From Antedon mediterranea (Eukaryota; Echinodermata; Crinoidea; Comatulida; Antedonidae), in NCBI RefSeq assembly GCF_964355755.1, contig NC_092672.1:37506501-37570500 (forward strand): 64,000 nt of DNA, in the 5' to 3' direction. Under the pieces are notes generated by a model. That model saw nothing but the letters and a program-made list of their open reading frames with translations, was not told where the DNA came from and did no database searches. Below are positions 8,210 through 16,300 of the stretch, piece after piece. Positions within the stretch are counted from its first letter, which is position 1, and each line of letters opens with the position of its first letter. A program made the translations under genes and the position numbers.

Positions 8210-10987
8210 ATGAACTTATTTTGTAACTTTCGTGTGTTTATACGCTTGAATTCACACATAAATTCTTGTGTATTTTCTAGATGTTTGAGTACCGGAGATG
8301 TAGTTTTTGTACCTAGGAAACTACCATTTAGGGTGCCTAAAGAAACTTTTTCAGAGGGCCAAGACCCATTTGTGCGGTCGACAAATAAACCACAGAATAA
8401 TGGCAATCAAGAATCATCAGACTCAAATATTTTCTCTTATAGTAACATTTCTACACATGATTTAAAAATAAATGACAACTTACCAGATGTCGGAGGAATA
8501 GAAGAAAATGAAAATACAATTTATATTCAATTTGATGGTACAGAAAAGAAAAATAGGAAAGATGCAGAAAAACAAAAAGCATCAGAACTATCCCCGGCCA
8601 AAGCTGCTGCAATGAATGTCCGAGACAGTTTACGAAGTGAAACTGGTAAATGAAAGTGTGAAATGTACCGATTCAATTTACAAACTACCAATCTAAAATT
8701 TGATTACTTTCGAGATTCATAAATTTAAAGATTTCACAATTGAAAAAAAATAAAGTGCGAAAGTTTTACAAAAGTTCATGGAAAATAAAAATATTAAACA
8801 TATTTCTCATTTCTGTATTTAACATTTTAACTCAAATTCTTTTTTATTTAGTTACAAGTAGCAAGAATACTGGGTTTGACAGTAAAGGGTTTAAGATTTA
8901 CACAGATACAGTGCCGGATTTAAAGAGGGTACCTCCAGCAAAAGTAACAAGTATTCTCAAATCAAGAATCATTTACAATGAAGGTTAATGGATCGTTTAC
9001 ATTTAGCAACTCTTGCAATTACAAACTGTTGATGTTCTATATTTACTCACAAACTTTATATTTTTAACTCTTTTCTGTTTTTGCAGGTGAAATTCTTGCA
9101 ATAGACAAGCCGTATGGATTGCCATGTCATGGTACTTTGTTTTTTTTAATAAACTTATAAGATCAGCTAAAACATTAATGCATGTAAACTTAAAGTAAAA
9201 CTCTGTCTAAACATGGAGAAATTTCTCCATGGTCTAAACTATCAATCTTTATGTGACAAAAAAAATGTGATGTGCCCATATATGGACATGATGATGTTAT
9301 TGGGCATATGATATCACTACCATATTTGGGAACATCACACTTTTTTTGTCAAACTAGGTTGAAAGTGTAGACAGAGCTTTATACGATCAGCAAAAACATG
9401 GTATTTGCAGAGCAGAAGAAATTCACACTAATAAATGTATAAATCTAAATCATGACAGTACTTTCCAGAACAGTATTTAGTCATTTGTACTGGTTTTTCT
9501 TGATCTTTTTTGGACTTCATGCTAATATAAAGCATTTAAAGAGGAATATTTTAATACTTAACCTATCACACAACAAAAAAGTAAGTTAATAAAGAAGTTA
9601 ATATCTTAATAATTCAGGTGGACCAGGGGTTGTGAATAACATTGAGGAGCTGTTGCCCCGATTGGCTAGAATGTTGCCAGGACAACAAGAAGACTTGACA
9701 CTTCACATGGTTCACAGGCTGGACAAGGAGACTACTGGTGTGATGCTATTTGCTAAAACTGAAGAAATGAAATTAAAATTACAGGCAATGTTTAGAAATC
9801 ATGTGATCAGTAAAAAATATTGGTAAGAAATTTGTTTAGAGTGTAATGATCCATAATGACCGTTTTCTTTATCAAACTATAAAAAAAATTTTTTTTTTCA
9901 TTTTTAGGGTTATTACAGTAGGCGTTCCAGAACCAAATAAAGGTAAATTTATTTCAAATGCAATTCAAATTATATTTTCAAATATTATTCATAAAAGTTA
10001 TTTCATGTTCCATTTTTTTTATAGGAATGTTAGATATCCCGATGATTGAAAAAGAAGTTGAAGGAAAGCACAGGGTAACGTTGAACCTGAATCTAGTAAA
10101 CCCTTACTTTTTTAAGTCTCACAATATCCTTTTACATTTAATTTGAACTATTTTCTAGATGAGTTTAAAACCTGATATTGGCGATGTCTACAAAAATCTA
10201 TGGCAAAAAAAGAGCAGATCTTTTGGTACAAAGGCTGTGTCAAAGTTCAGAGTTCTGGATGATAATGGTACTGCTGCCCTCGTCGAAGTTCAAGCGGTTA
10301 CAGGTAAGACAAAGTTTATATCACTATTATCCAAAATTTATTGTACAATTTTCTTTTTTAAATCATAATTAATCTTATTTACAGGTGAAGACAAGTTTAT
10401 ATCACTATTTATCCAAAGTATCTTAAATTTGCCTTTAAAGTCGTCATATTTTCTTTCTAAATCATAATTGTTATTTACAGGTGTAAAACACCAGGTACGC
10501 TGTCACATGGCATTTGGTCTGGGTTGTCCCATACTAGGGGATCACAAATACTCGCATTTCAATAAAATTGCCCCACAGGTAAGCAAATCATTCTAGATTT
10601 AAACCTGTTAGTAGACTCAGTGGTTCAGTGAATTACTTGTGTAGAATGAGTGAAGCTACGTGGATGGTTTGAATATTGAATACAAAGTGACAACGTAAAG
10701 TTCAGAAGTAGTGAACACAGGAGTGGTACAGGAAACATAGCCTAAGTAAATATTTCTTTGTTTCACGTCAACGTCGACACATTTTTTACTCTTTACAGAA
10801 ACTTCCAGTTGAAATGCTTCAGCGATTTAGACTCCGACAGGCCAAAGTTCGCACAATGCCGATGCACCTTCATGCTCACCAGATATTTTTACCAGAAATC
10901 TATCAGGGTCGCAATCTCTCCATCACAACTCGGCTACCACAGTTTTTTAACAAAAACTTGTCATATCTGAAACTTAAGGTTTCATAA
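8210..10987 (+). CDS. RPUSD4: Mitochondrial RNA pseudouridine synthase RPUSD4
   Basis: Nine plus-strand exons: 8210-8645, 8852-8983, 9087-9131, 9618-9822, 9908-9942, 10025-10074, 10159-10303, 10481-10578 and 10799-10987. They give 1335 bp (444 aa plus stop), and all phases fit. The N-terminus is basic, free of acidic residues for over 25 residues and likely a mitochondrial presequence. A low-complexity linker follows. The RluA-type domain starts at [17 protein letters not shown] and has the catalytic loop [14 protein letters not shown] (Asp of HRLD). Later conserved parts are [20 protein letters not shown] and [16 protein letters not shown]4 pseudouridylates mitochondrial 16S rRNA and tRNA. 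The linker is long compared with the human protein. The gene is convergent with LIMK. Intron 3 holds a family A MITE. Confidence 0.94.
9196..9383. repeat. MITE family A, copy 4, carrying a small palindromic insert
   Basis: Family A copy in RPUSD4 intron 3, ending in GACAGAGCTTTATA. Its left end (CTCTGTCTA...CTATCAA) is interrupted by a 20 bp palindrome with a flanking 7 bp duplication, listed separately. Confidence 0.88.
9205..9238. mobile_element. 20 bp palindrome between 7 bp direct repeats, copy 1
   Basis: GTCTAAA, then CATGGAGAAATTTCTCCATG (a perfect 20 bp palindrome), then GTCTAAA again. Other family A copies read straight through this point, so the palindrome plus one repeat is an insertion here. 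The twin is at 14252-14285. Confidence 0.65.
10304..10480 (+). repeat. Tandem duplication carrying a decoy splice acceptor
   Basis: Intron 7 of RPUSD4 contains two related segments. Each starts with an acceptor-proximal GTGAAGACAAGTTTATATCAC or similar and ends with TAAATCATAATT..TTATTTACAGGTG. The first copy leaves a good acceptor before 10385. Using it would add a short frame ending in TAA shortly after TTTCTAAATCA, so only the acceptor before 10481 gives the family sequence. Confidence 0.7.
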
Positions 10988-13316: not shown

Positions 13317-16300
13317 TCAGCTTGAAACTGATAAGTCCTCAAGTTTCTTAGAAAGAAGAGGTTTTCCATATTCCAGCTGGACATGTAGTGAGTTCAAAGC
13401 TCCCGATAAATCTTCAAAGTCAGGCCTGAAATAAAATTAAGATTAAAATCAATAAGATTTCAATACACTTTTAATTATAATCATTAAATAATAGTTAGAA
13501 AACAATAAACTAAAGCTCTGCCTACACTATCAAACTAGTTTGACAAAAAAATATTATTTTTACAGTACAATTTTTTAACTTTTTAGTAGTCATAGGGCGC
13601 TTTAAGTGCAATTATCAGTGTTATTTTTATGTCTGAGGACCCCAATGGAAATAAGTTTTCTTTTAAACTTTCTTGGGTTATTCCTCGGTTCATTCTATTA
13701 ATATTGTTATCTTGTGCTTTTTTTCTGTTATGTTTGTCTTGTATTTTTGAGTGAACCGAATAAAACTGAACTGAACTGATGTGCCTAAATATGGTAGTGA
13801 TATGCCCAAATAATGGTAGTGATATGACATCATCATGTCCATATATGGGTACATCACATTTTTTTCGTCACATAAAGTTTGATGGTGGTAATAATGAATA
13901 TTCAATTACAATTCATACCTGCTATCAGATTCCAAATCACAACACTCTTTAACAATCTTGATCAGCTGTTCAGGACAACCGACACCAAACTTTTGTTGAA
14001 ACAACGGAACATTCAAACCAAAGTCATGTCGGCGAGGAAGAATATCAGGGTCAGCGCTGATTCGACCAATCAGCTCGCACAGAATTATGCCAAACGAGAA
14101 CACATCTACCTTTTCATCATATTGTTGACCTATAAGATATTAATGAATTTGGTTTTAGAAATAATTATTTTACAAACATATTAATAGACATTTCCTATGT
14201 CCAAAAATAATATTATAGTTTTATTAATAGCTGTACAATGACTTTTTTTTAGTTGAAACATGGAGTAAAGACTCCATGGTTGAAATCATAATTCAGTCCA
14301 GGATAACCATTAAAATGCTGTGTACCATTTTTATAGTGTTATTATTATTATACAAGTTCCACAATAATGAATAAAAAAAAATGAACAAAATTAACTAAAA
14401 TGAACAAAATTAACTAAAATTTATATTTATTTTACATCAATAAATAAAGTTTTTCCGAGGAATAAAAATGAGTTATAAAAGGATTACACGTTATTTATTA
14501 ATAATGAGAAAGAAGGAAGTCGCTGAACCTCGACCAGGAAATGACTGGTCGTGGTCCAGTAGGCAGAACTCAAGTGTTTGAAAAAAGAGGATATATTAAT
14601 ACACAGATTTAAAATATGCGTTTATAACATTAAAATGTCACAAATGTGATGTAATAAAATGTGCATTTATAGAGTTAAATATTTCAATAACGTTTCAAGA
14701 ATGTTATGTATTAAAAAAATGCATTTAGAACATTAGATAGATTAACATTAGATATTAAAATGTCAAAAAAGTAACATATTAAAATTAAGAATAGGCAAAA
14801 ACCTTAATTTTTTACAAACTGTTAACTTTGTATTTCTTTATACTGAATCAATTTCCTAATAAACTAAACCAGTAAATACTCTTAAACACTTTTGAAGATC
14901 TGTAATTACCTCTAAGCATTTCTGGTGCCATCCAGTAGGGATTGCCTACCACTGTGTACCTCTTCTTTCTCCCTCTACCAAGTGAGTTGGTTCCTAGCTG
15001 TCCAAGCCTAGGATCCGTCTTGTCCTCCACCATGATACGCGCCAGACCAAAGTCTGCAACGACTACTGAGCCGTTAGCCCTAACCAAACAGTTTGGTGAG
15101 TTCAGATCCCGGTGAATTATGGATCGTGAGTGAAGGTAACGCTGGAAAAAAAAGTTAAATAAGTTATGAAGAGAATACATTTATAAAGTTATTTGACCAG
15201 AATGTTCTTCCAAATTTGGAAAATCAGACAATGTGATGTCCAGTGGCCATATTCACCATTCACACTTAGGCTAAGGGAAACACCCTTAAAATTAAAAAAA
15301 TCTCACTGCTAAGTGAATACAATTTAAGGGAAATACTTAAATATTCATTGAGTTAAGTGAAATACTGAAAATTTAAGGGCAATATTTCACTTAGGTGTGA
15401 TTGGTGAATACGGCCACAGGTTTCCAGTTAGTGGAGTGTATAACTGTAATTAAATGTAGTGAGAATCTGTTTTGTCTACATCTTCATTAAGTAATACATT
15501 GTTATCAACAGAATACAGGTATGTACATATACACTTACCATTCCCACTGCAATGTCATGTGCATATTTTGTCTTGGCTAAATTTGATAAGGGTTTATTCT
15601 GCAAGATACAAACATTTTTTTTTGGTCAAGGTAAATTATTTCAAGTTTTATATGTAAAATTTAAAGTATATATATTTCCTAAAACTATTTATATATGACA
15701 CATCAGATCAACACCAATTATAACAAATTATTTTCATAATCTACATAATTTACAAAACTGAAAATATATTTTTGCTTTTAAAACAATATTAGCAAAATAA
15801 TGAAATAAATCAGGGACAATATACTGGGTTAGGTGGTCACATGACTTTAATAGAGCGAGATTGTGTAATATGGTTTATCTAGCTTAGGATAATAATTAGA
15901 TTAACTTAGAGGAAAAGCAGTAGGATACTTTCAGTTTGGACTTTTAAGATTATAGATTTTTAGAGCACTGTTTATCCAACCAAACCGTATTTTAAAAGTC
16001 ATATCATTTGTTTATTTTCTTAATGTTAAGGACATTACTAACAACTGCACTATTTCTTTACATACTTTTTTCATTCACAATAATTGGGTTAAAACATGAA
16101 ATAATCTGGCAACAACTTAAAGATTAATACTTGAATGTCAAAAATTGTTTAAACTTATATAAACAATTTATATTACTTAACTTAAGGATTTCAGATGCTT
16201 TGGCTATTTTGCATTTATGTGATAAAATGCACGTACAAGCAAACAAGAATTTATGAAAAAATTAGTTTGTTTGCATTTTTGATTTATTGACATATGAATC

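Follow-up and report, generated by a model that had tools for sequence, protein, structure and literature searches.

The 64,000-nucleotide stretch of the crinoid Antedon mediterranea analyzed here, which we refer to in its full length as the window and which lies on contig C3 of a genome of 354 Mb in 18 contigs, contains two 20-bp palindromes, each enclosed by its own exact 7-bp direct repeat. Direct reading gives GTCTAAA-CATGGAGAAATTTCTCCATG-GTCTAAA at 9205–9238 (scar 1) and GTTGAAA-CATGGAGTAAAGACTCCATG-GTTGAAA at 14252–14285 (scar 2), as an earlier note on this DNA had described them; the second has the length and position reported there but is not a perfect palindrome, its centre being TAAAGA. 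The translated sequence, read directly, places scar 1 between exons of what we take, by recognition, to be a pseudouridine-synthase-like gene, and scar 2 beside an exon, on the minus strand, of what is presumably a LIMK/TESK-like kinase. For the reasons set out below, we consider it very probable that each palindrome is the excision footprint, or scar, of a DNA transposon of the P superfamily. The features concerned, none of which is assigned to a strand, are as follows:

9205–9211: left GTCTAAA 7-bp target-site duplication of scar 1 (direct reading; exact match to 9232–9238)
9212–9231: scar 1, fused ends of a family B element (junction decomposition)
9232–9238: right GTCTAAA target-site duplication of scar 1 (exact match to the left copy)
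9199–9379: family A miniature inverted-repeat transposable element (MITE), the recipient of the scar 1 insertion (inverted repeats; empty sites in the window)
14252–14258: left GTTGAAA 7-bp target-site duplication of scar 2 (direct reading and flank comparison)
14259–14278: scar 2, fused ends of a family C element (junction decomposition; intact ~2.3-kb family C elements in the genome)
14279–14285: right GTTGAAA target-site duplication of scar 2 (direct reading and flank comparison)

Decomposition of the junctions resolved scar 1, with its centre AAATTT, into 11+11 nt of a family B terminal repeat (CATGGAGAAATAAGTTAG...) sharing a 2-bp AT overlap, and scar 2 into 13+8 nt of a family C terminal repeat (CATGGAGTAAAGAATAAGAGGAG...) sharing a 1-bp overlap. 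Thus, the two centres differ because the parent families differ, and the core of scar 2 is an imperfect palindrome because of its 13+8 join. Consistent with the insertion of scar 1 into a MITE, as the earlier note had proposed, its empty site, GTCTACACTATC, is found in the other family A MITE ends of the window, at 5167, 24161, 28235, 30551 and 31922, and also on the minus strand. Both scar 1 duplications read GTCTAAA and the other copies of this MITE read GTCTACA; the A was therefore present at the site before the insertion duplicated it. When the window was scanned for 7-bp repeats around a core with 6-bp palindromic arms, scars 1 and 2 were recovered together with one low-complexity match, while the same scan of five dinucleotide-preserving shuffles of the window returned no matches.

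The earlier note had suggested either that the 20-bp palindrome is itself mobile or that it represents the fused terminal repeats of a larger transposon, and a search for full-length elements beginning with CATGGAG, which it had recommended, decided in favor of the latter: parent elements of 0.9–6.3 kb with the same termini, flanked by 7-bp duplications, are present in the same genome. By seeking longer sequences that begin with the scar end, we identified an element of 883 bp (L059:86-968), bounded by inverted repeats of ~33 bp (CATGGAGGTATAAAAATAGAAGGAGAGAGCTCG) and flanked by the duplication CCCAATC; several near-full copies of it have 93–98% identity. A locus matching this element at its two ends alone, 6.3 kb apart, proved to be a 6,324-bp element (L061:57-6380) with the duplication GATACCG and a terminal inverted repeat, CATGGAGGTATAAAAATAGAAGGAGAGAGCTC, that is identical at both ends; it shows the ~31-bp terminal inverted repeats of the P superfamily, the corresponding repeats of the 883-bp elements being ~33 bp long. 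A second group of parents, family C, comprises ~2.3-kb elements with the CATGGAGTAAAGAATAAGAGGAG... ends recognized in scar 2; like the 883-bp elements, these are non-autonomous. In families A and C, ten full-length elements were checked at both ends; nine of them have exact 7-bp duplications, as do the L059, L060 and L061 elements, in keeping with the 7–8 bp duplicated by P-superfamily elements. The L060 element (L060:49-159, duplication GTCAAAT) is a 111-bp derivative consisting of ~100 bp of one end and 10 nt of the other, the form that would be expected from abandoned gap repair finished by end joining. Family B is represented by 53 occurrences with at least 18 bases of its end; no intact family B element is recognizable among the sequences listed, and its parent may be extinct in this genome.

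To count such palindromes genome-wide, we required exact 7-bp ends, an approach that misses decayed scars, and used the reversed pattern as a control. The pattern proposed in the earlier note, CATGGAG-N6-CTCCATG, occurs 219 times, as opposed to once for the control. With a spacer of 0–30 bases, CATGGAG/CTCCATG pairs number 2,521 (control, 12), but with a spacer of 31–60 bases only 190 (control, 47), several of which are pairs of neighboring scars. The flanks were compared at 60 sites from the window and contig C1. Exact 7-bp repeats were found at 44 of these sites and repeats matching at six of seven positions at seven more (at least six of seven at 51 of 60), while left and right flanks mispaired across sites matched exactly in 0.14% of the pairings. 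Flank identity averages 0.87 in the 7-bp register and falls to background (0.23–0.28) in registers of 5, 6, 8 and 9 bp, which bears out the interpretation of the flanks as target-site duplications. The 44 exact duplications comprise 43 different sequences, with the palindromic consensus GTTWAAC, and therefore reflect independent insertions rather than copies of one repeat. The outcomes that the earlier note had named as refuting its observation, no genome-wide excess or flanks matching no better than chance, were thus not obtained.

The scars are 17–44 bp long, with junctions that differ between sites, and keep at most about 18–21 nt of the terminal repeat per end. Among the family A and C sequences listed, none keeps 22–32 nt, and intact ends resume at 33–35 nt. 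In the 20-mers, 7–13 nt remain of each end, and the inner terminal repeat (AGAAGGAG...), present in all intact copies, is missing. Their most frequent form, CATGGAGG-TATA-CCTCCATG (20 of the 50 20-mers listed), corresponds to two family A CATGGAGGTATAAAAATA tails overlapping by the 4-bp TATA; the 34-mers are 18+18 joins with a 2-bp TA overlap, and longer scars hold filler. In family C, several joins have one end of exactly 18 nt, the other end being trimmed to varying extents. Furthermore, at C2:11742667-11742721 a family C scar (duplication TATAAAT) is nested within a family A scar, so that the order of events, and hence relative dates, can be read.

Identical strings, CATGGAGGTATAAAAATATTTTTACCAAACCATGG, with GGTCAAACCATGGAGCTGG nearby, recur at many sites on C1, C2 and C3 (for example, C1:10487264, C1:26665437, C2:13812508 and C3:12332804), and this repeat has seemingly taken up a scar and multiplied it. 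Tandem arrays at 44339–44708 and 45050–45165 of the window, with 37-bp and 36-bp spacing, have units that hold palindromic arms (GTTACTAG...CTAGTAAC; TGAATAC...GTATTCA).

The genome contains the parent elements, the duplications, transposase domains, the retention ceiling and, as described below, a second family, and we propose that the scars arise as follows. A P-superfamily element would insert and duplicate 7 bp of its target, preferably GTTWAAC. The transposase would later excise it by a long staggered cut, presumably with a polarity that places one nick at the 3' end of the element and the other ~18 nt inside the terminal inverted repeat, and each donor end would retain an ~18-nt tail starting with CATGGAG; retention lengths, together with the cut described in PMC7776569, suggest that these tails are 3' and single-stranded. 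Because the same inverted repeat supplies both tails, they could anneal at self-complementary stretches (TATA, AT or TA), or else be joined bluntly after trimming, and the product would be the duplication, the truncated repeat, its reverse complement and the duplication again. The repair is probably of the polymerase-theta end-joining type, and the elements may still be active.

Judged by its domain matches, the 6.3-kb element encodes a P-superfamily transposase with a P-type RNase H domain and a GTP-binding insertion. Its 590-codon frame (L061:3482-5254, minus strand) matches the P-type RNase H domain PF21787 above the cut-off (E 4.9e-24), and downstream frames match PF21788 (GTP-binding insertion; E 5e-5, just below the cut-off) and PF21789 (RNase H C-terminal; E 1.2e-5, above it). 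The closest solved structure to the frame is the Drosophila P transposase (6p5a; phmmer E 6e-5), and in the alignment its motifs FDEMKV and CDGAAPN coincide with the two catalytic-Asp regions of that enzyme; the candidate catalytic Glu probably lies in DPLEEYF of the C-terminal frame, across putative exon joins. The 590-codon frame also has a sub-threshold P helix-turn-helix (HTH) match and, at its N-terminus, a zf-AD-like zinc finger, whose E value of 1.9e-5 falls short of the curated cut-off. The Pfam domain search reported no match to THAP at this N-terminus, which lowers only the claim to a canonical P/THAP9 protein, as we take the zinc-finger type to be variable within the superfamily. 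On the opposite strand, the element has one frame with a PHD finger (L061:292-657, plus strand; PF00628, E 1.6e-6) and another, of 350 codons, without a match in Pfam (L061:1056-2108, plus strand); these are possibly an accessory gene.

A P family around PF12017 (L018-L023, ~97–99% identical copies) was considered as a parent of the scars, since CATGGAG lies near one of its ends, but was rejected because the similarity boundary places its true terminus at CAAAGATCTT... (ends CAAAGATCTTATAATCTAAAG... and CAAAGATCTTATAATC). Having been dropped as a parent, this family served as an independent test of the footprint model, under which it should leave CAAAGATCTT...AAGATCTTTG scars, with CAAAGATCTTATAAGATCTTTG as a microhomology product. 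Such scars occur 24 times genome-wide, compared with none for the control, and include exactly the predicted CAAAGATCTTATAAGATCTTTG. Among 20 sites of this family with flanks, eight have exact 7-bp and five exact 8-bp duplications, and four more are one base off; the 36-bp scars are 18+18 joins. Hence, scars of this kind are also left by another P family, whose ends are unrelated. Separately, C3 and C6 each carry a copy of a 617-codon P-type transposase frame (L027 and L028); the two copies are 99% identical, and the near-palindrome CATGGAGTTATATTTTTATACCGCCATG adjoins both.

In Drosophila, the P transposase makes a staggered cut: one strand is cleaved at the 3' end of the element, and its partner 17 nt into the terminal repeat (PMC7776569). 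The donor ends are left with 3' tails of 17 nt (PMC2895639). Among the junctions formed upon P{wa} excision are joins with AT/TA overlaps, blunt joins and insertions, most of the latter being copies of nearby flanking sequence (PMC2895639, Table 1). The crinoid scars resemble these Drosophila melanogaster footprints in their order (duplication, truncated CATG... end, its reverse complement, duplication), in their AT/TA microhomology joins, blunt joins and filler, and in the length of the tails, ~17 nt in P (PMC2895639). However, the duplication is 7 bp rather than 8 bp, ~18 nt rather than 17 are kept, the repeat sequence is different, and the scars, ~2,500 in one genome, are natural germline products as opposed to laboratory events. 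Galileo, a P-superfamily element of Drosophila, likewise has 7-bp, sometimes 8-bp, duplications and a palindromic target consensus (PMC4168063), although its consensus is GTATTAC rather than GTTWAAC and its termini differ; furthermore, that article reports element copies, not scars, and does not use the word footprint. As in P elements and vertebrate THAP9, the RNase H core is split by a GTP-binding insertion, with a putative HTH and candidate D-D-E catalytic residues (PMC7776569, PMC8230255). Unlike them, the crinoid protein has the zf-AD-like finger, itself below the curated cut-off, with no THAP match reported, and its 6.3-kb element also carries the opposite-strand PHD-finger and unmatched frames.

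Could the palindromes instead be ultra-short non-autonomous transposons, that is, 20–40-bp MITEs that insert as such and are moved in trans by a P-type transposase? Each has its own target-site duplication, they are very numerous, and short internally deleted copies do exist, such as the 111-bp derivative. Yet the 20-mers lack the inner terminal repeat of every intact copy, retention stops at ~18–20 nt, length and junction vary from site to site where an amplified unit should be uniform, and a second family with other ends has the same architecture. Complete terminal repeats and uniform copies, the traits of a mobile unit, are absent from the scars, and we regard this explanation, and with it the mobility of the 20-bp unit itself, as very unlikely. 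In contrast, both traits of a footprint are present: the two duplications are kept around truncated terminal repeats (44 of 60 exact at 7 bp), and retention is limited by a long stagger (a ceiling of 18–20 nt; 17 nt in Drosophila).

Hairpin-forming transposases typically leave palindromic footprints, and the earlier note had raised a hairpin-insertion footprint; a hAT- or V(D)J-type enzyme would produce the palindrome as P-nucleotides from an opened flank hairpin. However, the palindrome repeats the terminal sequence of the transposon and not the flank, CATGGAG is common to sites whose flanks differ, the parent transposase is P-type and the duplications are 7 bp. The footprint thus stands, but a hairpin step is not needed, and we give this origin scarcely any credence. 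Least probable of all, to a degree we consider negligible, are chance or cruciform-prone palindromes, or a regulatory operator, with coincidental flanks; these are refuted by the 200-fold excess over the control, the flank identity specific to 7 bp and the 43 different flanks.

Some observations weigh against our interpretation of the palindromes as P-superfamily excision scars. The evidence comes from one individual's assembly. The attribution of scar 1 to family B, of which the assembly holds no intact parent, is by end sequence only. At nine of the 60 sites, two of which have an 8-bp repeat, the flanks match at fewer than six of seven positions when compared over 7 bp, and some such scars are decayed, rearranged or of other origin. 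Finally, outside the modal TATA 20-mer the excess of microhomology, in a small random sample, is modest.

P footprints of this anatomy are already known from laboratory work on Drosophila. What appears to be new is a natural genome with ~2,500 of them, families seen solely as scars, and the ~18-nt cut. A literature search for genome-wide P footprints found no report, which is weak evidence of absence, as most subscription journals lay outside the search. By our estimate, scars are one to two orders of magnitude more numerous than elements whose ends are intact. With ~2,500 scars and a few dozen intact-end elements, we lean toward viewing this genome as a near-complete, datable ledger of germline transposition, in which end joining would be a common fate of P-type donor sites, family B and others would perhaps be 'ghost' transposons, and nested scars would order waves of activity.

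Short palindromes of this kind resemble operator-like motifs, and annotators may misread them. Counts of cut-and-paste transposons usually rely on the copies still present; here, departures can be counted as well, since each scar with both duplications readable is the record of a single insertion, a single excision and a single act of end joining. Germline excision, cut position, target preference and repair signature are thus measurable from a single assembly, and the scars reveal families that are possibly extinct.

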